From assembly GCF_018224925.1 (NCBI RefSeq), contig NZ_JAGTUF010000001.1:310001-374000 (forward strand): a stretch of 64,000 nucleotides of DNA, in the 5' to 3' direction. Both the position numbers and the translations under genes were made by a program. The notes under the pieces are model-generated. The model had not been told where the DNA came from, did no database searches, and saw only the letters and a program-made list of their open reading frames with translations. Source of the stretch: Magnetospirillum sulfuroxidans. Lineage in GTDB: Bacteria > Pseudomonadota > Alphaproteobacteria > Rhodospirillales > Magnetospirillaceae. Shown here one piece after another: positions 16,765-24,955 of the stretch; the first letter of the stretch is position 1; each line of letters starts with the position of its first letter.

Positions 16765-16854
16765 TTTGTGTGTCTTGTGGCGGTCGCCTCAATGGACTGT
16801 AGGGGGTGAACAAGCACCTTAAGACAAAAGTTTGTGGTATCGTGCAACAAGAGG

Positions 16855-16883
16855 TTGCCATTGATGCCAAAAGTAGTGACAAT
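16855..16883 (+). promoter_or_regulatory. Candidate promoter of the first XRE gene
   Basis: TTGCCA (16855-16860) and GACAAT (16878-16883) are separated by 17 bases, giving a sigma-70-like promoter about 37 bases ahead of the ATG at 16920. It supports that start over the in-frame one at 16806, which would lie upstream of the promoter. Confidence 0.4.
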
Positions 16884-16919
16884 AAGCCCGTGGGGCATAG
16901 CCACAGGAATTTGAGAATT

Positions 16920-17408
16920 ATGATTTCTACCGCCAATAACGAACTGAAGAGCAGCACTCGCCGGGTGTCCAGCCGTGGACGGACTCCGGGGGGCAAGCCT
17001 AATCCTATCGACGTTCATGTGGGCGCTCGCGTCCGCTTGCGGCGTACCTTGATGGGCATGAGCCAGGAAAAGCTGGGTGAAGCCCTGGGCTTGACCTTCC
17101 AGCAGGTGCAAAAATACGAACGCGGCGCCAATCGCGTCGGTGCTTCGCGCCTGTTCGATCTGTCTCGTGTTCTCGACGTTCCGGTCAGCTTCTTCTTTGA
17201 CGACATGTCGGAAGCTGTCGAAGCGTTGTCGCCGCGACTGATCTCGGGCTTGGCCGAGGAACCGGCTTCTTTCGACGCCGATCCGATGACCAAGCGCGAA
17301 ACCTTGGAACTGGTGCGGGCCTATTACCGCATCACTGATCCGCACGTGCGCAAGCGGGTGCTGGATCTGGCCAAGGCTTTGGGTGCGGTGACCGAAGTCT
17401 CTGAATAA
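16920..17408 (+). CDS. XRE-family transcriptional regulator (PhrR-like)
   Basis: A DNA-binding protein of about 162 residues. The helix-turn-helix reads VRLRRTLMGMSQEKLGEALG...FQQVQKYERGANRV, followed by SRLFDLSRVLDVPVSFFFDDM. The C-terminal part (KRETLELVRAYYRITDPHVRKRVLDLAKAL) is a helical dimer or effector region. This architecture matches PhrR/SinR-like regulators common in alphaproteobacteria. It converges on a related gene at 17456 with a shared terminator. The start is set by the promoter at 16855 and the likely ribosome binding site; the frame stays open upstream to 16806. Confidence 0.9.
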   Translation: MISTANNELKSSTRRVSSRGRTPGGKPNPIDVHVGARVRLRRTLMGMSQEKLGEALGLTFQQVQKYERGANRVGASRLFDLSRVLDVPVSFFFDDMSEAVEALSPRLISGLAEEPASFDADPMTKRETLELVRAYYRITDPHVRKRVLDLAKALGAVTEVSE

Positions 17409-17413
17409 AAGCA

Positions 17414-17459
17414 TTAAAGCCCGGTGGCGGTGATGGTGAGCACCGTTGCCGGGCTTTAA
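17414..17459. terminator. Bidirectional terminator shared by convergent XRE genes
   Basis: TTAAAGCCCGG (17414-17424) pairs with CCGGGCTTTAA (17449-17459), and an inner CGGTG/CACCG extends the stem after three mismatches. The A- and T-rich outer bases give a U-tract in both directions. The right arm contains the stop codon of the minus-strand gene. Confidence 0.8.
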
Positions 17460-17881
17460 ACTTCAGTCTTTTCCGCCAAGGTTTGCGCCAGTTCGTGGAC
17501 CCGCTGGCGGTCGCCACTGTCGACGATGGCCATATAGGCGCGCAGCAGATCCAGCGTTTCCCGCATGTCTTCGCCGGTACAGCCCAAGGCGCCAAGATCG
17601 GCGAAGGGAGTGCCGGGAAAGCCGCTTTGCAGCTCGCGCGGCATGCCGTCGAAAAAATAACTGACCGGAACCTCAAGAAAGCGGGACAGCGCATGCAGAT
17701 GCACTGGCGTCACCCGTTCGCTGCCATTTTCCATTTTGTGCAGTTGCTCGGGGGGAATTGCCAGCGCTTTGGCCAGGTTTTCGCACGATAGCATCAAAAC
17801 GGTACGACGGGCACGAATGCGCCGCCCTAAATTGGCGTCGATGGGGTCGATGGCGTTTTCTGCGGGAATGGCGTCAGTCAT
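17456..17881 (-). CDS. XRE-family transcriptional regulator, paralogue of the convergent neighbour
   Basis: A regulator of about 141 residues. The helix-turn-helix is RRIRARRTVLMLSCENLAKAL...PEQLHKMENGSERVTP, followed by LHALSRFLEVPVSYFFDGM. The tail (MRETLDLLRAYMAIVDSGDRQRVHELAQTLAEK) aligns with the convergent gene, so the two are paralogues. The ATG at 17881 puts the domain at the usual distance; the frame is open to 17998 but that part overlaps the luxR leader. It is divergent to the luxR-type gene, so the two promoters share 17882-17964 and cross-regulation is plausible. Confidence 0.87.
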   Translation of the reverse strand: MTDAIPAENAIDPIDANLGRRIRARRTVLMLSCENLAKALAIPPEQLHKMENGSERVTPVHLHALSRFLEVPVSYFFDGMPRELQSGFPGTPFADLGALGCTGEDMRETLDLLRAYMAIVDSGDRQRVHELAQTLAEKTEV

Positions 17882-18032
17882 GGCACACGCAACATTGATT
17901 GGTGCATCGGGTCTGTATACCATACGCGTCGAAGGTGTAAAACCCATGGTCGGTGCGAGGTAACATGGTCGGCGACAATTTTCGCTTGGCGATTTCATCG
18001 AACGGACCCTGGCGGCTTCCTCTGCTCCGGCT

Positions 18033-18692
18033 TTGATGGCCGAGCTTAAGACGGCGCTGGTTCATTGGGGCTTTCCTCATATGGCGTGCGGCGCCTTCGG
18101 CGACCCTGACCGGCCTCTGGATGACGACACGGTTCCCGCCGTGGTCGTCGATTATCCGCAAGAGTGGCAAAAGCACTATTTCGAAAAGAACTACGTGACC
18201 ATCGACCCGGTGGTGACGCGGGCTTTCCAAGCGCACATCCCCTATCGTTGGGATCAATTGCGCGATCTGACCACCCTGCAAAATCGCATGTTCAACGAAG
18301 CGCACGAAATCGGCTTGTTGCACGGTATCACCGTGCCCATTCACGGCCCCACCGGCGGGGTTTTCGTCGCCAGCATCGCCAGCCCGCACGACGACATCGA
18401 CCACCTGCGGAGCTTGTCGGTGGCCAACATCTTGGTGACCCAGGCCTATTCCGTTCTGGTCGGCCTGAAACATCCCGGCGCTCCTGGCGCTCCGGTGGCG
18501 TTGACTGGCCGCGAGCGCGAATGCCTGATCTGGAGCGCACGTGGCAAATCGTCGTGGGACATTGGGGTGATCCTCAATATCTCGGATAATACGGTCAATT
18601 TTCATCTCAAGAATGCCATGAGCAAATTAAAGACCTCCACCCGCGTCCTCGCTATCGTCAAGGCTATTCGCATGGGACTGATCGTTCCGTAA
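18033..18692 (+). CDS. LuxR-family quorum-sensing regulator with disrupted start
   Basis: The autoinducer-binding residues typical of TraR/LuxR are present: Trp45, Tyr49, Asp58-Pro59, Trp73 and Gly98 counted from the TTG at 18033. The C-terminal LuxR helix-turn-helix reads LTGRERECLIWSARGKSSW...NTVNFHLKNAMSKL. The true N-terminus seems to lie upstream: the frame reads back through DFIERTLAASSAPAL, as in full-length family members, but meets stop TAA at 17961 with no usable start. A well-placed ATG at 17965 (GAGG ribosome binding site) is one frame off, the two joining at a T4 run (17979-17982). With luxI downstream it should sense an acyl-homoserine lactone if full-length protein is made. Confidence 0.87.
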   Translation: MMAELKTALVHWGFPHMACGAFGDPDRPLDDDTVPAVVVDYPQEWQKHYFEKNYVTIDPVVTRAFQAHIPYRWDQLRDLTTLQNRMFNEAHEIGLLHGITVPIHGPTGGVFVASIASPHDDIDHLRSLSVANILVTQAYSVLVGLKHPGAPGAPVALTGRERECLIWSARGKSSWDIGVILNISDNTVNFHLKNAMSKLKTSTRVLAIVKAIRMGLIVP

Positions 18693-18773
18693 ACCCCTCA
18701 ACCTTGGCAGGATGTAATAATACTCATTTCGTCTTCTTCTAGCGCTCAGAACGATATGCGCCAGGAGGGGTTG

Positions 18774-19397
18774 ATGATTGAGGTTGTAAACTGGGCTAAT
18801 TCACACGCATTTGGCGATTCTCTTGCTGCCCATCATCGGTTGCGCCATAAATGCTTCGTTGAGCGAAATGGTTGGACCGTTCCCAGTCATGACGGCATGG
18901 AATACGACCAATTCGATACTCCGGCCGCCACCTATCTGATCCACCGTGATGACCATGGCCCGGTGCAAGGGGTGGCGCGATTGATCCCCACCACGCGGCC
19001 TTACATGCTGAAGGAATTGTGGCCCGATCTGTTGGGTGGCGACGTGCCGGTCAGCACTCAGGTGTGGGAAGCCACACGCTTTGGCATTGATGATGATCTG
19101 GAGCCGGCGGTCAAGCGCCGGGTGGCGGCGGAAATCGTTCTGGGCTGTCTGGAATTCGCCATGTCCATGGGGATCGAGCGCTATCTGGTGCTGATGCCGC
19201 ATCTGATCATTCGCCGGACCATCGGTGGGGCCGGGTGTAAGTTCCGCTTTCTGGGTGAGACACGGGCGCTGGCCGATTATCCGGTGGCGGCGGCCGAAAT
19301 CGAAGTTAACGCCCAGGCTTTAGCCAGTGCGCGGGCCAAGGTCGGGGTGTATGGCTCGCTGCTGCGTCGGCATGATGTCGCGGCGGAGGCGGCGTGA
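18774..19397 (+). CDS. luxI: Acyl-homoserine-lactone synthase, LuxI family
   Basis: A 207-residue autoinducer synthase that makes N-acyl-homoserine lactone from SAM and an acyl-ACP or acyl-CoA. The invariant set is complete: Arg24, Phe28, Trp34, Glu43, Asp45, Asp48, Arg69, Glu99 and Arg102. The start at 18774 follows AGGAGG by five bases, better than the in-frame ATG at 18756. It lies 81 bases behind the luxR-type gene, and its stop overlaps the start of a 64-residue gene (TGATG). The acyl chain cannot be told from sequence. I see no clear lux box in the short upstream gap. Confidence 0.93.
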   Translation: MIEVVNWANSHAFGDSLAAHHRLRHKCFVERNGWTVPSHDGMEYDQFDTPAATYLIHRDDHGPVQGVARLIPTTRPYMLKELWPDLLGGDVPVSTQVWEATRFGIDDDLEPAVKRRVAAEIVLGCLEFAMSMGIERYLVLMPHLIIRRTIGGAGCKFRFLGETRALADYPVAAAEIEVNAQALASARAKVGVYGSLLRRHDVAAEAA

Positions 19398-19591
19398 TGG
19401 GCAGGGGCGTGGCGCCGTACGGGCGATTGGAGCTGCCGCTGGCCGGTGACGCCGCCATCATCGGCCAGGCCTTGGAGGCCTTGGCGGGGCGGGCGCGCGA
19501 TGTCGGCCTGGCCGCGTTGGCGGAATCAATCCTCGAACTGGGGCTGGAAGCGGCGGAAATCGCCCGCCATACCGGCAAGTTGACCCACTGA
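19397..19591 (+). CDS. Small protein translationally coupled to luxI
   Basis: A 64-residue protein whose ATG overlaps the luxI stop (TGATG). It is Ala/Leu/Gly rich and predicted helical (AAIIGQALEALAGRARDVGLAALAESILELGLEAAEIARHT is one long heptad-like stretch at about 20-58, given here by range only for its repeat character). It has no membrane helix or signal peptide. A strong terminator follows eight bases after its stop, so it closes the luxI unit. The role is unknown; a modulator of the synthase or of the regulator is possible from position alone. Confidence 0.65.
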   Translation: MGRGVAPYGRLELPLAGDAAIIGQALEALAGRARDVGLAALAESILELGLEAAEIARHTGKLTH

Positions 19592-19598
19592 ACGCAGC

Positions 19599-19629
19599 AA
19601 GGCCCGCTTCCCTGGGGGAAGCGGGCCTT
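19599..19629. terminator. Strong bidirectional terminator after the luxI unit
   Basis: AAGGCCCGCTTCCC (19599-19612) pairs perfectly with GGGAAGCGGGCCTT (19616-19629) over a three-base loop. It separates the 64-residue gene from the convergent 52-residue gene. Confidence 0.85.
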
Positions 19630-19646
19630 GTTCGTCACGGACGGGA

Positions 19647-19805
19647 TCAGTGGACGGTTTCGCTGGCATCCTCGGCGGCCAGGCCGGCCACTTCGATCAG
19701 TTCAGCCAGTTCGCGCAAATCTGATTGGCGCGCTTCTTTGGCCAAATAGTCCAGGCAATGCTTGATTGCCTTGGCATTTTCGGTGCGGCTCTTGGCTTCG
19801 TTCAT
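19647..19805 (-). CDS. Small conserved-looking helical protein, 52 residues
   Basis: A short frame on the minus strand starting MNEAKSRTENAKAIKHCLDY and ending DASETVH. A GGAGG ribosome binding site sits seven bases ahead of the ATG, codon use matches neighbours, and the frame ends just before the terminator at 19599-19629. The product is charged, helical and soluble with one Cys. Its start lies 15 bases from the palindrome at 19820-19845, shared with the divergent radical SAM gene. Function unknown; it could be a small regulator or partner of the quorum-sensing locus. Confidence 0.6.
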   Translation of the reverse strand: MNEAKSRTENAKAIKHCLDYLAKEARQSDLRELAELIEVAGLAAEDASETVH

Positions 19806-19819
19806 CTCCAACCCTCCGT

Positions 19820-19845
19820 GGCATAGCTTTAGCTAAACCTATGCC
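19820..19845. promoter_or_regulatory. 26-bp near-perfect palindrome in a divergent promoter region
   Basis: GGCATAG, C, TTTAG, then CTAAA, C, CTATGCC: a 26-base palindrome with one C-C mismatch per arm and no loop. It lies between the divergent 52-residue gene (start 19805) and the radical SAM gene (start 19986), a typical operator position. It does not match the usual lux-box CTG-N10-CAG, so the binding protein is unknown. Confidence 0.5.
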
Positions 19846-19985
19846 TTCCACCGTTTTTCCGGTACCTACCAGACTTGGTGGGGTGGGGTTGACGTAAAGA
19901 CCCTACAGGGCCAGTTGTTGAGATGGATTTCAGATACGGTTATCGTGCCGACAGTGAACGCAACGGCACCTTAAGCGGGGATTTC

Positions 19986-21695
19986 ATGAACCGGCAGGCC
20001 AATATCGCCATCTGTCCGTTTTCCTTTCCGGCCAGCTTGCCGTTAGGTCCTTCGATCATCAAGGCTTTCGCCGAGGAACATTCGGACTTCAAGGTCAATT
20101 GCGTTGATCTGAATGCCGAATGGTACAACACCTTTGTCGATGCCGCCCTGGCCGGCAAGAGCTTTGTCCAGTTCACCCCCGAGGCCCGGACCGATTTCGC
20201 CAAGGCGGCGAAGATGTTCCGCGATGGCGGTGATGTCTTTTGGGACGAGGCCGAATACCAGCGGCTGTCGCGTTTTTTCGAATCGATCATCCGCAAGGTG
20301 GAAAACGTCTTTCTGGACGGTTTCGAACGCGCCTGCGCCAAGGGCGAATACGTGCCGCCAATCAAGGCCTATGCCGAGCATGCGGCGCGCAAGCTGCTGG
20401 CCAATGATCCGTCGGTGGTCGGTTTCTCGCTGATGTTTCGTGAACAATACATGCCATCGGTGCTGATTGCTTATTACGTCAAGGCGCTGCGTCCTGACGT
20501 TAAGATCGTCTTTGGCGGCGGCTATACCAGCGCCTGCCATCCGTCGATCCTGTTCGCCAATCCATTTATTGACTTCGTCGTTTTCAACGAAGGCGAGGGC
20601 GGCTTCCATGCTCTGCTGATGGCCTTGGACGAAGGGCGGACCCGCTTCGACGGCATCGCCAACCTGATCTGGCGCGACCCCACCGTCGAGGAGGGCTGGA
20701 CCAAAAACCCGAAATCGCCGTCGGTGGACTTCAAGACTCAGCCTTACCCTGATTTTTCCGATTTCCAGCTCGATTCCTATTTCCAGCCCGAGCCGGTGTT
20801 CCCGATCATGAGCTCCAAGGGCTGTGCCTGGGACAAATGCACTTTTTGCACCCACCACCGCTCCTATTCCGGCGCGCATCGTGCCGCCCCCACCGACCGG
20901 GTGGTGGGCGAGATCGAGCACATGGTCAACACCTATGGCGTCAAGCGCTTCGCCTTTGTCGATGAAATGATCTCGCCCGGCCGTTTCCGCCGAATCTCGG
21001 AAGATCTGATCGAAAAGAAAATCGACATCACGTGGTACGCCCTGGCCAAGCCCGACCTGATCTATACCGAGGAAATCCTCAAGGTCATGCACGATGGCGG
21101 CTGCCGGTATATTCTGTGGGGGGTGGAATCGGCCAACCAGCGCATCATCGACCTGATGGACAAGGGTACCACCCCGGACGGCGTTTCCGAGGTTTTGGCC
21201 CGCTCGACCCGCGCCGGTATCCACAATCATCTGTTCATCATCGTCGGCTTTCCATCGGAAACCGAGGCGGAATTCCAAGAAACCATGGAATTCCTCTATG
21301 ACAACCGCAACAACGTGCATCGCATCTTGGCCTGCGGCTTCTCTCTCGATAACGGTTCGGTTATCTTCAAGGAACCGGAACGCTTTGGTATTTCCCGCAT
21401 TTGGGATGTGTCCAACATCGCCACCGTCAGCGTCAAATACGACGTCGAGCAAGGGGTGGGGTGTTTCGACACCGAAAAGCATGCCATGTTCTGGAAGACC
21501 AATTTCTTCGACCATTTCGAGGCATTCAAGGGCGATCTGGGGTTGTTCCGCAATCACGCCTTGCTGCACTATACCTATCCGGAACGGATCAAGCCGGTTG
21601 GCGGGCGGCGGGTTCCCAATCCGCGCAAGCTGAAGCCCCCGCCTTACCAGGCTGGGCGCACCGTTGCCTCCGACCGGAAGGTTCTGACGAAATAG
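19986..21695 (+). CDS. B12-binding-type radical SAM protein
   Basis: A protein of about 569 residues. An N-terminal Rossmann region (VVGFSLMFREQYMPS, VKIVFGGGYTSACHPSIL) resembles cobalamin-binding folds but lacks an obvious DxHxxG. The radical SAM cluster motif is Cys280-x4-Cys285-x2-Cys288 (GCAWDKCTFC), followed by FAFVDEMISPGRFRRIS and GCRYILWGVESANQRIIDLM. The C-terminal 150 residues are family specific. The reaction is unknown; B12-type members do methylations and rearrangements in natural product routes. The start at 19986 follows AGCGGGGA; the frame is open to 19923. It lies just upstream of HD, ACP and AsnB genes. Confidence 0.85.
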   Translation: MNRQANIAICPFSFPASLPLGPSIIKAFAEEHSDFKVNCVDLNAEWYNTFVDAALAGKSFVQFTPEARTDFAKAAKMFRDGGDVFWDEAEYQRLSRFFESIIRKVENVFLDGFERACAKGEYVPPIKAYAEHAARKLLANDPSVVGFSLMFREQYMPSVLIAYYVKALRPDVKIVFGGGYTSACHPSILFANPFIDFVVFNEGEGGFHALLMALDEGRTRFDGIANLIWRDPTVEEGWTKNPKSPSVDFKTQPYPDFSDFQLDSYFQPEPVFPIMSSKGCAWDKCTFCTHHRSYSGAHRAAPTDRVVGEIEHMVNTYGVKRFAFVDEMISPGRFRRISEDLIEKKIDITWYALAKPDLIYTEEILKVMHDGGCRYILWGVESANQRIIDLMDKGTTPDGVSEVLARSTRAGIHNHLFIIVGFPSETEAEFQETMEFLYDNRNNVHRILACGFSLDNGSVIFKEPERFGISRIWDVSNIATVSVKYDVEQGVGCFDTEKHAMFWKTNFFDHFEAFKGDLGLFRNHALLHYTYPERIKPVGGRRVPNPRKLKPPPYQAGRTVASDRKVLTK

Positions 21696-21701
21696 GAAAG
21701 C

Positions 21702-22337
21702 ATGATGACCGAGGCGCGAGCCTGGGTTCTGCTCAGGTCCAAGCGGCGCTTCGATCTGCTGAACCCCACTCCCTTTGATTGGGAACTGGCCGACCTTGCC
21801 GAGGGGGAGGCCCGAACCTTCCGCTGGGGCGGTTCGTCAGCCTGGGAATGGCCGCTTTCAGTGGCTCAGCACAGCTTGTTGACCCTGGAAATTCATCGCG
21901 CGGCGGCCCCCACCGGGCTGTCACCGGCGCTGGAACTGGCTAACCTGGTCCATGACGGGGCCGAGGCGCTGGGGGTGCGCTGGGATCCGATTACTCCGGT
22001 CAAGCCGTTCTTGGGCGATGGTTTCCACAAGATGGATCGTGCGATCCAGCGCGCCATCCATATTCGCCTAGGCTTGCCGGCCGATATTCCCGTCGATTGG
22101 AAAAAGGCGATCAAGCATGCCGACCGTCGGGCGGCAGCGGCGGAAGCCCTGCATATCGCCGGCTGGAGCCGCGAGGAAATCCGCTCGACCCTGAAAATCC
22201 GCTTGGCCCCCCTGGCCGAGGACCCACTGCAACGCCGCTATGGCGGGACTGCGTGGGAGCCTTGGCCCATGCGGGTGGCCGAGGAACGCTTCCTTGCCGA
22301 GTTGGAGCGGTTGTTGCACCGCCATTCACTGGGATGA
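21702..22337 (+). CDS. HD-domain phosphohydrolase (YfbR-like)
   Basis: A 211-residue HD-superfamily hydrolase. The metal ligands are seen in SVAQHSLLTLEIH (first His), ANLVHDGAEALGVRWDPITPVK (His-Asp pair and following helix) and DRRAAAAEALH. The order matches YfbR/YedJ-type 5'-nucleotidases or related phosphohydrolases. It begins six bases after the radical SAM gene, so they are co-transcribed. Either nucleotide housekeeping or removal of a phosphate in the neighbouring pathway would fit; the substrate is not evident. Confidence 0.75.
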   Translation: MMTEARAWVLLRSKRRFDLLNPTPFDWELADLAEGEARTFRWGGSSAWEWPLSVAQHSLLTLEIHRAAAPTGLSPALELANLVHDGAEALGVRWDPITPVKPFLGDGFHKMDRAIQRAIHIRLGLPADIPVDWKKAIKHADRRAAAAEALHIAGWSREEIRSTLKIRLAPLAEDPLQRRYGGTAWEPWPMRVAEERFLAELERLLHRHSLG

Positions 22338-22521
22338 CCTGTTCACCCCCTGAGATCACGGAGCTTTTTTACCCGACGCATCCATCTTCTCAAGGGCTTG
22401 CCCCGGTGGCTGGCGGGCTGAGCCCGTATCGGGATTTTGTCCCTGGACTTGCCCGAAGACAAGTTTGACAAAGCCCTGTATGCTGCCCTGCACACCTACG
22501 GTTTAGCGGTGATCGACCCAA

Positions 22522-22776
22522 ATGGATAAAATTCGCGCTTTCATCGAAGAACAATTCCTGATCGAATTCGACGATGACTTCCCCGAGGACAGTAATTTGT
22601 TCAAAGAGGGGGTGATGGATTCGTTTGGCTATGTTCAATTGATCCGTTTTCTCGAAAAGGAATTCACCATCACCTTTTCCGAAGCGGAAATGACCGGCAA
22701 TGTTTTGGTCAGCCTGACCCGCATGCAAGAAGCGGTGGCCGCCAAGCTGGCCGCCCGCGACGGCGCGACGGCGTAA
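22522..22776 (+). CDS. Acyl carrier protein
   Basis: An 84-residue stand-alone acyl carrier protein. Ser34 in VMDSFGYVQLIRFLEKEF is the phosphopantetheine attachment site, with the usual acidic helix II and length. It differs from the housekeeping fatty acid AcpP (no DSLDTVEL sequence), which points to a specialised carrier. It lies six bases ahead of the asnB-type gene and should hold the acyl or aminoacyl group that the amidotransferase modifies. The 184 bases upstream have no gene and contain a small CCCG/CGGG hairpin followed by ATTTTG. Confidence 0.9.
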   Translation: MDKIRAFIEEQFLIEFDDDFPEDSNLFKEGVMDSFGYVQLIRFLEKEFTITFSEAEMTGNVLVSLTRMQEAVAAKLAARDGATA

Positions 22777-22782
22777 TCTGGG

Positions 22783-24747
22783 ATGTGCGGAATCGCCGGC
22801 CTGATCCACACGGCCCAGCCCGCCGCGGATCTGCCCGCCACCATCGCCGCCATGCTGGGGCGCATCGGTCATCGCGGCCCCGATGGGTTGGGCGGGGTGG
22901 TCGGCGACGATTGGGCCATGGGCACGGCGCGACTGGCTATCATCGACCCGAGCTCGGGGCACCAGCCCTTGGGCGATGCCAGTGGCCGCTTTTGGCTTTG
23001 CTACAACGGTGAAATCTATAATTACCGGGAATTGCGGGCCGAGCTGGAGGCTTTGGGGCACGCATTCCACACCCATTGCGACACCGAAGTCTTGCTGGCC
23101 GCCTGGCTGGCCTGGGGGCAACGTTGCCTAAAGCGGCTGAATGGCGGTTTTGCCTTTGCCCTTTATGACCGTCTTGAGCGGACATTAGTGCTGGCGCGTG
23201 ACCGTTTCGGCAAACGGCCGCTGTTTTACGCCCGTTTCCAGGGCGGCTTGCTGTTCGCCTCGGAAATGAAGGCGTTCTTGGCCGTTCCCGGCTTTGACTT
23301 TACCCAGGATCCGGCGCAACTGGCCTCGATTTACGGGCAATGGACGCCCTTGCCGGATCAAAGCGGCTTTGTTGGCATCCATTCCCTGCCCATGGCCGAA
23401 TACATGATTTTCGCCGATGGCGCCCTGCACCATCACGCTTATGCGCCGTTGGCGTTTGATCGCGGCGCCATGCCGACCAGCGAGGCCGAGGCCAAGGAAC
23501 AGATCCGCCAGCACCTGACCGATAGCGTTGCCTTGCGCCTGCGCAGCGACGTCGAGGTCGGGGTTTATCTGAGCGGCGGCGTCGATTCGGCCATCGTCGC
23601 CCGCCTGACCCGTGATGTCAGCGGCCGACCACCGGCCACCTTTTCGGTGTCCTTTGATGATGCCAGTCTGGATGAATCGTCTGAGCAAAATCAGGTCGCC
23701 GCCGCCCTGGGCACCCGCCACCACACTTTGCGCATTGGCCACGCCGACATTGCCGCCGCGTGTCCACAGGCGGTCTATCACGGCGAAGTGCCGGCCTTTC
23801 GCAGTGCCTTTATCCCCATGTTCCTGCTGTCGGGGATGACGTTCGCGGCTGGCATCAAGGTGATCCTGAGCGGCGAGGGGGCCGACGAGGCTTTCCTGGG
23901 GTATGACCTGTTCAAGGAAACCCTGCTGCGCCGCGCCTGGGACACCATGGACGAAGACACCCGCCGTCAGCGTTTGGGCCGGCTGTACCCCCATCTTGAC
24001 CATTATGGTCCGCAAGACATGGCGGCGCTGACCGGGCTTTATCAGCAATTTTCCACCGAGCATATGCCCGGCCTGTTCTCGCACGAACTGCGTTTGCAGA
24101 ACGGCCGCTTTTCCGCCCGTCTGATCAAGGGGGCGAAAGACCCGTTCGGGCCGTTGTCCGCCCTGGTCGCCGATCACCCGGAAGTCGCCCGTCTCAGCCC
24201 GGTGCAACAGGCGCAATGGCTGGAATACAAGACCTTGCTGCCCGGTTATCTGCTCTCGACCCAAGGCGACCGCGCCGCCCTGGCTCATGGGGTGGAAAAC
24301 CGTTGCCCGTTTCTGGACCCGGCGGTTTTGGATCTGGCCTCGCGGTTGAATTTGCGCTTTGACGACGGCTTTGATGAAAAGCGGCTGTTGCGTCAGGCAT
24401 TTGCCGGAATGGTGCCCGATTCGGTCATCAACAAGCGCAAATTCCCCTATCGCGCCCCCGACGGTGCCGCCTTTGCCGAATCCCGTCCCGATTACCTGGA
24501 ACTGGTGCGGTCGGAAACCGAATTGGCCAAGTTGGACTTTCTTGATGCCGGCTTCGCCCGCCGCCTCAGCGCCAAGGTCTTGACCCGCCCCGCGGCGGAA
24601 ATCAGCACCAAGGAAAACCAGACCTTCTTGTTCTTGCTGTCCACCATGCTGCTGCGCCGCTTTTTCGTCGAGCGGCACATACCCAAGGCAATGGCGCCGC
24701 CGCCCTTGCTGCGGATGATTGATCTGCGAAGCGCCGCAATCGGTTAA
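22783..24747 (+). CDS. asnB: Asparagine synthase-type glutamine amidotransferase
   Basis: A 654-residue two-domain enzyme. Cys2 of MCGIAGLIHT is the glutaminase nucleophile; the Ntn domain runs to about 190 with NGEIYNYRELRAELEALGH and RDRFGKRPLFYA. The synthetase domain has the PP-loop LSGGVDSAIVARL near 262, LSGEGADEAFLGYDLF near 364 and HGVENRCPFLDPAVLDLA near 505. It either makes asparagine or amidates another carboxylate. Because it is paired with a dedicated ACP, as in several exosortase-linked and natural-product clusters, a role on an ACP-bound substrate is likely. No exosortase or PEP-CTERM gene is in the window. Confidence 0.88.
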   Translation: MCGIAGLIHTAQPAADLPATIAAMLGRIGHRGPDGLGGVVGDDWAMGTARLAIIDPSSGHQPLGDASGRFWLCYNGEIYNYRELRAELEALGHAFHTHCDTEVLLAAWLAWGQRCLKRLNGGFAFALYDRLERTLVLARDRFGKRPLFYARFQGGLLFASEMKAFLAVPGFDFTQDPAQLASIYGQWTPLPDQSGFVGIHSLPMAEYMIFADGALHHHAYAPLAFDRGAMPTSEAEAKEQIRQHLTDSVALRLRSDVEVGVYLSGGVDSAIVARLTRDVSGRPPATFSVSFDDASLDESSEQNQVAAALGTRHHTLRIGHADIAAACPQAVYHGEVPAFRSAFIPMFLLSGMTFAAGIKVILSGEGADEAFLGYDLFKETLLRRAWDTMDEDTRRQRLGRLYPHLDHYGPQDMAALTGLYQQFSTEHMPGLFSHELRLQNGRFSARLIKGAKDPFGPLSALVADHPEVARLSPVQQAQWLEYKTLLPGYLLSTQGDRAALAHGVENRCPFLDPAVLDLASRLNLRFDDGFDEKRLLRQAFAGMVPDSVINKRKFPYRAPDGAAFAESRPDYLELVRSETELAKLDFLDAGFARRLSAKVLTRPAAEISTKENQTFLFLLSTMLLRRFFVERHIPKAMAPPPLLRMIDLRSAAIG

Positions 24748-24880: not shown

Positions 24881-24955
24881 TGGTGGGCGATGCAGGGATT
24901 GAACCTGCGACCCCACCCGTGTGAAGGGTGTGCTCTACCGCTGAGCTAATCGCCC
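24881..24955 (-). tRNA. tRNA-Val (anticodon CAC)
   Basis: The minus strand folds into a cloverleaf: acceptor GGGCGAT/ATCGCCC, D arm GCTC...GAGC, anticodon stem CACCC/GGGTG with loop TTCACAC, T arm GCAGG TTCAATC CCTGC, discriminator A and encoded CCA (75 nt). The anticodon CAC reads GUG valine codons. Confidence 0.95.

Follow-up and report, generated by a model that had tools for sequence, protein, structure and literature searches.

Does the luxR-luxI quorum-sensing pair of Magnetospirillum sulfuroxidans control one pathway formed by the four enzyme genes that follow it, or do these genes belong to two different systems? The question is raised by a window of 64,000 nucleotides (nt) (G000:C11:310001-374000, the whole stretch of DNA analysed here) from the 4.13-Mb draft genome of this species, in which luxR and luxI are followed by genes for a cobalamin (B12)-type radical SAM enzyme, an HD-domain phosphohydrolase, an acyl carrier protein (ACP), and an AsnB-type amidotransferase. 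The original prediction had read these four genes as possibly one autoinducer-controlled pathway acting on a carrier-bound acid. According to our comparison with related genomes, two units adjoin in the window, with their boundary between 22338 and 22521. Quite probably, one is a conserved quorum circuit to which a single enzyme operon is dedicated, and the other is a starter module displaced from a known polyketide pathway. The sequence comparisons support the radical SAM enzyme as an autoinducer-controlled output and do not support one pathway with ACP and AsnB.

The features concerned are the following (positions in the window; aa, amino acids; AHL, acyl-homoserine lactone; dNMP, deoxynucleoside monophosphate):

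16806..17408, plus strand: Xre-type (HTH_3) regulator (Pfam HTH_3, 47.5 bits; kept in synteny, 76-93% identity in five relatives)
17456..17998, minus strand: second Xre-type regulator, paralogue of the first and divergent from luxR (Pfam HTH_31, 28.7 bits; kept in synteny, 48-60% identity in five relatives)
18033..18692, plus strand: luxR (Pfam Autoind_bind, 94 bits; GerE, 63 bits)
18693..18712, plus strand: lux-box-like element 5' of luxI (six-genome alignment, genome-wide pattern search; 10 of 20 positions symmetric)
18774..19397, plus strand: luxI, predicted AHL synthase of 207 aa (Pfam Autoind_synth, 92 bits; 87-93% identity in relatives)
19394..19591, plus strand: small protein of 65 aa, overlapping the luxI stop (kept in six genomes)
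19597..19631, no strand assigned: terminator-like hairpin separating the two convergent small genes (39 nt folded with 16 pairs at -33.5 kcal/mol)
19647..19805, minus strand: second small protein, 52 aa (81-90% identity in five relatives)
19864..19883, plus strand: lux-box-like operator candidate 5' of the radical SAM gene (conservation and pattern searches)
19986..21695, plus strand: cobalamin-type radical SAM enzyme of 569 aa with a Cx4Cx2C cluster motif (Pfam Radical_SAM and B12-binding)
21702..22337, plus strand: HD-domain phosphohydrolase, dNMP-phosphatase-like (profile matches to PDB and phage families)
22522..22776, plus strand: ACP, SbnK-type, foreign to the quorum locus (Pfam PP-binding, 21.1 bits against a cut-off of 20.8; 78-84% identity to ACPs of polyketide clusters in four genus relatives)
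22783..24747, plus strand: AsnB-type amidotransferase, SbnJ-type (Pfam Asn_synthase and GATase_7; 74-78% identity to cluster AsnBs)
24881..24955, minus strand: tRNA-Val(CAC), right edge of the differing segment (the same tRNA lies 5' of LOG and ThiE in G005, G007, and G011)

By Pfam and open reading frames (ORFs), luxR, luxI, the ORF overlapping luxI, and the radical SAM, ACP, and AsnB genes all lie on the plus strand as predicted, while the second small protein proved to be encoded on the minus strand.

Conservation of the quorum-sensing locus

The LuxR-LuxI pair was recognised by the Autoind_bind and GerE domains of the one protein, the Autoind_synth domain of the other, and the adjacency of their genes; in a class-wide search, one luxI was found in the window's genome. 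The most likely start codons lie at 18774 for luxI and at 19986 for the radical SAM gene. Of 13 genus genomes searched (the window's own and 12 others), six hold the radical SAM enzyme at full length, namely the window's genome, G005, G007, G008, G011, and G012, and G002 holds only a 29% match. In all five other genomes with the enzyme, the order of two Xre genes, luxR, luxI, the gene of the 65-aa protein, and the radical SAM gene is kept, and the 52-aa protein is present in all six. A break of synteny between 19591 and 19986, which would have spoken against the prediction, was looked for in these relatives and not found. This synteny, together with the conserved lux-box-like site described below, supports the predicted autoinducer system with what would be a dedicated radical SAM target.

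The conserved order ends sooner than predicted. The HD gene lies 3' of the radical SAM gene in four of the five other genomes (G005 being the exception), and the ACP-AsnB pair stands at the quorum locus in none of them, so that the proposed order luxI-radical SAM-HD-ACP-AsnB breaks after HD. Instead, AhpC homologues follow the HD gene in G007, G008, G011, and G012 (the last cut by a contig end), and AhpF homologues in G007, G008, and G011; G008, G011, and G012 share similar DNA directly 3' of HD, from which that of G007 differs.

A scan of named genome contigs with the radical SAM enzyme yielded four close loci, labelled Magnetospirillum sp. (two), Rhodospirillaceae bacterium, and Stygiobacter sp., and two distant ones. 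In the open-access literature, judged by title or abstract opening, no Magnetospirillum quorum system and no luxI-linked B12 radical SAM enzyme was found; an excerpt of PMC8262917 lists a predicted homoserine-lactone cluster for MSR-1. A second LuxR-type protein is encoded about 20 kb upstream of luxR-luxI (L059:17775-18491, G000:C11:307775-308491; Autoind_bind, 123 bits).

Candidate lux-box-like operators

In the intergenic region before the radical SAM gene, 78 of 318 alignment columns are identical across the six genomes. Three overlapping 20-bp segments over 19862-19883 tie as its most conserved part with 18 of 20 identical columns each, followed by a second stretch at 19909-19931 with 17 columns. 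A las/rhl-type consensus, searched with at most three mismatches, has its sole match in the window at 19865-19882, where 0.00 matches were expected from 100 shuffles. An operator candidate, as named in the original prediction, is therefore present at 19862-19883, while its palindromy is weak (12 of 20 positions).

A joint consensus of the luxI and radical SAM sites was searched in the six genomes with at most two mismatches. It gave 46 matches, 13 of them at zero or one mismatch, which are both sites in each of the six genomes and one more in G011; in the other five genomes the two quorum-locus sites are therefore the only matches of this class. The reversed control pattern gave 63 matches against 46, so that only the class of zero or one mismatch stands out. 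In its 20-mer form with at most three mismatches, the pattern matches twice in the window against 0.20 expected, and two matches were reached in one of 100 shuffles.

Small proteins around the intergenic hairpin

The 52-aa gene is convergent with the 65-aa gene, and since the hairpin lies between them, luxI and the radical SAM gene are probably separate transcripts. The profile of the 65-aa protein finds the 52-aa protein at E 1.5e-4 and one other luxI-adjacent ORF at E 0.004. For a wider view, 30 luxI loci including the window's were examined, drawn from 61 matches in 52 of 385 genomes of the class; the 52-aa profile finds ORFs directly 3' of luxI in nine of the 29 other loci (E up to 0.008), three of the nine coming from one genus or family. 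Neither small protein had a match among plasmids.

The two Xre-type proteins may be similar to the regulator PraR. According to excerpts of PMC4149787 and PMC10790750, PraR is bound by CinS and MmaP, small proteins that are encoded after luxI-type genes. As in CinI-CinS/PraR-type systems, a small protein is encoded directly after luxI here (19394-19591), and it is kept in six genomes. By analogy, the 65-aa protein is possibly a CinS/MmaP-like anti-regulator, and the small proteins would probably bind the Xre regulators in the way that CinS and MmaP bind PraR.

Several observations weigh against a conserved circuit with a dedicated enzyme operon. The luxR frame of the window is unlike that of its relatives: it is open only from 18033, the LuxR proteins of four relatives begin upstream of this start with about 23-28 extra N-terminal residues, and the alignment of region 17966-18036 places one extra base in a run near 17990 in all five relatives, a difference that may reflect either an error in the sequence or a genuinely altered N-terminus. 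HD and radical SAM genes also occur one without the other: G005 has the radical SAM gene but no HD match at 1e-12, while G010 has HD yet lacks a radical SAM match at 1e-30 and, within the 20 kb examined, any lux gene. The joint box consensus was derived from the two sites, and their fit to it is given by construction; its 18-mer form matches twice in the window against 1.46 expected, which was reached in 38 of 100 shuffles; dyad symmetry is weak, with 10 of 20 positions at the luxI site and 12 at the radical SAM site, a value that 3.0% of all 20-mers in the window reach. Finally, the likeness to the systems of CinS, MmaP, and PraR is one of gene arrangement.

Displacement of the ACP-AsnB pair

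In the window's genome, ACP and AsnB have a single match each, at 0.001 and 1e-100, respectively. Among 60 other relatives, ACPs of high identity (71-84%) were found in G005, G007, G008, G011, G046, and G057; AsnBs of high identity (74-78%) were found among 40 others in G005, G007, G008, G011, and G046. G057 is outside that set of 40, and its AsnB was found at its polyketide locus. In all six genomes the ACP-AsnB pair is located at a polyketide locus, with ECH, KS, a discrete ACP, HMGS, P450, and FkbM within 17-20 kb; in G007 these families are backed by Pfam, except for the discrete ACP (no match at 1e-8).

The window's genome carries a similar cluster on the same contig, about 46 kb upstream of its ACP-AsnB pair: polyketide synthase (PKS) frames, phosphopantetheinyl transferase (PPTase), FkbM, P450, HMGS, discrete ACP, KS, and ECH lie at C11:231-286 kb, the PKS frames starting from 233 kb and the partner genes ECH, KS, ACP, HMGS, P450, and FkbM standing at 281-286 kb (C11:268001-270000 is outside the stretches examined). 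G007 has genes for an acyltransferase, a binding protein, and a transporter 5' of its ACP; none of these turned up in the stretches of the window's genome that were examined. After AsnB, the window continues with tRNA-Val, LOG, and ThiE. The same tRNA lies about 7.7 kb after HD in G007, about 10 kb after it in G011, and on another contig in G005; the ACP-AsnB pair thus stands where G007 and G011 hold other genes. A short open stretch at 22422-22529, ending at the ACP start codon, is perhaps the end of a gene lost when the pair arrived.

A described pathway accounts for the pair. According to an excerpt of PMC8262917, SbnJ (AsnB) and an ACP are proposed to amidate ACP-bound malonate, the start of glutarimide formation in sesbanimide R; the window's pair is 74-84% identical to the cluster pairs of four genus relatives, and a PKS with a beta-branching cassette is present in the same genome, although the pair does not stand inside the cluster. 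The predicted amidation of a carrier-bound acid was therefore right in kind, and the remark that the set may rely on genes elsewhere applies to ACP-AsnB. In this reading, the pair would supply a sesbanimide-type glutarimide polyketide with its amidated malonyl starter, and it may still serve the cluster. In the same excerpt, sesbanimide R is reported from aerobic wild-type cultures, with no significant difference between wild type and mutant under microaerobic or anaerobic conditions.

One autoinducer-controlled pathway of radical SAM, HD, ACP, and AsnB is accordingly very unlikely, and was rejected on synteny. In its favour, all four genes lie on the plus strand with 184 bp between HD and ACP; read-through is possible, as no terminator-like site is listed on that strand at 22338-22521 by the scan, which also missed the hairpin at 19597. 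High-identity ACP-AsnB pairs occur in five of six genus genomes with the radical SAM enzyme and in none of seven without it (Fisher 0.005, ignoring shared ancestry), G002 having only 33% and 43% matches. However, the pair is absent from this locus in all five relatives and lies within the polyketide cluster in the four genus relatives that have it; it is also found in G046 and G057, where the radical SAM enzyme was not matched at 1e-30; and the only occurrences of the lux-box-like pattern with at most two mismatches on the polyketide contig are the two quorum-locus sites.

It is also conceivable, though doubtful, that the relocation is adaptive and that read-through from the quorum operon puts the polyketide starter step under autoinducer control in this species. 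The shared strand, the short gap, the lack of a listed sigma-70-like site near 22522, and the presence of most of the polyketide cluster on the same contig would fit this idea. Nevertheless, the arrangement is seen in one genome only; the promoter scan is uninformative (one site across 7.7 kb, where shuffled sequences would give 2.4); and the cluster has no box with at most two mismatches, while three-mismatch matches occur only at chance level in the two 20-kb stretches tested there.

A PPTase gene was observed 2.5 kb behind HD in G007 (L097:2832-3572), and the MSR-1 polyketide cluster is reported without such an enzyme in an excerpt of PMC8262917. An exchange of PPTases between quorum locus and cluster was considered and dropped: the cluster PPTase of the window's genome shares 64% identity with its counterparts in the clusters of G008 and G011 and 53% with that in the G057 cluster, against 50-54% with the enzymes at quorum loci.

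A separate subfamily of B12-type radical SAM enzymes

By sequence, the radical SAM protein is a B12-type enzyme of its own subfamily. Among the 385 class genomes, a search at 1e-60 returned the radical SAM gene of the window only; at 1e-50, 17 of 317 genomes of the order match, six from the genus and 11 others. Those 11 hold 12 loci (7.7-20 kb, some cut by contig ends), in which no luxR, luxI, HD, ACP, or AsnB homologue was found at 1e-4; the open frames that contain their 12 radical SAM copies measure 676-1102 aa in 11 cases and 575 aa in the other. In two of two tested among these longer homologues from other families of the order (L120-L131), TPR repeats precede the radical SAM part.

The motif GCxWxxCxFC is invariant in the 17 aligned members. 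Their profile has OxsB as its best PDB match (1.8e-18), followed by 9ccb (MgmA by its title), TokK, AprD4, and TsrM, and the profile of the six genus proteins alone ranks 9ccb and AprD4 above OxsB. An AlphaFold2 (AF2) model from the 17 sequences (pLDDT 86.9; a first model with pLDDT 48.5 was set aside) has a B12-binding domain and the radical SAM barrel fold, and Foldseek places 5ul2 (OxsB) first at 1.0e-17, almost level with TsrM (1.1e-17) and TokK (3.2e-17).

A tree was built from 28 rows: OxsB, the 17 members of alignment A5, and 10 hand-picked others. It leaves out the stop-containing copy of G561 and L014, as well as most plasmid records of two sets (155 and 26). A 100/100 branch splits off OxsB and four relatives (with a program warning about long branches). 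Three TIGR03975 members, each of which scores above the cut-off, form their own clade (100/99). The genus enzyme (100/100) falls among the homologues of the order with modest support (80-87/83-85). Membership in the OxsB group was favoured at first by profile, fold, and Cx4Cx2C spacing, and was then not borne out by the tree; the spacing is no mark of the clade, because the four OxsB relatives carry Cx3Cx2C while OxsB itself has Cx4Cx2C. A mobile origin was likewise discarded, as no place covering 80% of the radical SAM gene was found in phage or plasmid collections.

The enzyme would most likely act on a small molecule, either by methylating it at carbon or phosphorus or by catalysing a related radical rearrangement. 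A peptide or protein, perhaps one of the small proteins, seems quite an unlikely substrate. C-methylation as in ribosomally synthesised and post-translationally modified peptides (RiPPs) is suggested by TIGR03975 (RiPP maturation C-methyltransferase), which with PhpK (142 bits, cut-off 600) is the best NCBIfam match spanning both domains and is matched by all 17 family members at 1e-20. The score of the window enzyme, however, is 168 bits against the curated cut-off of 281.85, its Cx4Cx2C differs from the Cx7Cx2C of the three proteins that pass this cut-off and form the separate clade, and related small proteins follow luxI in class genomes without such a radical SAM enzyme at 1e-60.

That the enzyme tailors the signal by altering either the AHL itself or its acyl precursor has a similarly low probability in our view: the radical SAM gene follows luxI in six of six genomes and shares a lux-box-like site with it, but it is probably transcribed on its own, and the related enzymes elsewhere in the order have no luxI homologue in any of the 12 loci.

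In G002 and Paramagnetospirillum caucaseum (L014, L019), other radical SAM genes (25-27% identical) have AsnB-type genes (33%) no more than a few kb away; by eye, L019 looks like a surface-sugar locus.

HD-domain phosphohydrolase

The predicted HD hydrolase had no Pfam match at 1e-3, yet its assignment stands by other matches. Its profile finds 2gz4 (Atu1052) in the PDB at 1.2e-64, OxsA second at 8.5e-7, and YfbR at 7.9e-4, with 2gz4 being the only PDB match of a single-sequence search; in PHROGs, the two nearest families are dNMP 5'-phosphatases. The genus HD protein is distinct from a second HD type (37-43% identical) in other genomes, and G008 holds both. The protein would remove phosphates, and its closest solved relative is Atu1052 by far, not OxsA.

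Since OxsA is described in an excerpt of PMC13331322 as an HD phosphohydrolase working with OxsB in oxetanocin synthesis, the quorum operon might make a modified nucleotide or nucleoside: the radical SAM enzyme would rearrange or methylate a (deoxy)nucleotide and the HD protein would dephosphorylate it, an OxsB/OxsA-like division of labour in a separate lineage, with the polyketide starter genes behind the same switch in this species. We regard this as unlikely, given the tree, the G005 and G010 exceptions, and the homologous loci without HD. If true, the nucleoside product would be a density-dependent signal or an antimetabolite.

Proposed circuit and its significance

In the circuit that we prefer, LuxI would make an AHL, and LuxR with this AHL would activate both the luxI operon and the separate radical SAM-HD operon through the lux-box-like sites at 18693 and 19864; this control is inferred from conserved gene order and the candidate boxes. 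The result is a short, testable target list for the quorum system of one Magnetospirillum lineage, with two close lux-box-like sites in the window's genome, one of them 5' of the radical SAM gene. A described pathway explains the puzzling ACP-AsnB pair, so that no work need go into a false four-gene pathway; the locus also provides an example of a glutarimide starter module separated from its assembly line.

Comparison with known systems

OxsB-OxsA of oxetanocin A likewise combines a B12-type radical SAM enzyme with an HD phosphohydrolase; OxsB and OxsA rank first and second among the PDB matches of the respective family profiles, and OxsB shares Cx4Cx2C. It differs in that OxsB falls in another clade, no HD homologue stands beside the 12 order homologues, and the HD protein is closer to Atu1052. 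From TIGR03975 RiPP C-methyltransferases and PhpK-type P-methyltransferases, the window enzyme is set apart by scores far below both cut-offs, and from the three TIGR03975 members tested also by motif and clade.

CinR-CinI-CinS with PraR in Rhizobium leguminosarum and MmaR-MmaI-MmaP with PraR in Methylobacterium fujisawaense resemble the locus in having LuxR-LuxI, a small gene directly after luxI, and Xre-type regulators. Unlike these systems, the window has two Xre genes, two small proteins with one of their genes on the opposite strand, and a second lux-box-like site before the enzyme operon. The sesbanimide R cluster of Magnetospirillum gryphiswaldense, with sbnJ (AsnB) and sbnK (ACP), contains a similar ACP-AsnB pair, and most of its partner genes have counterparts on the window's contig, from which the window's pair stands about 46 kb apart.

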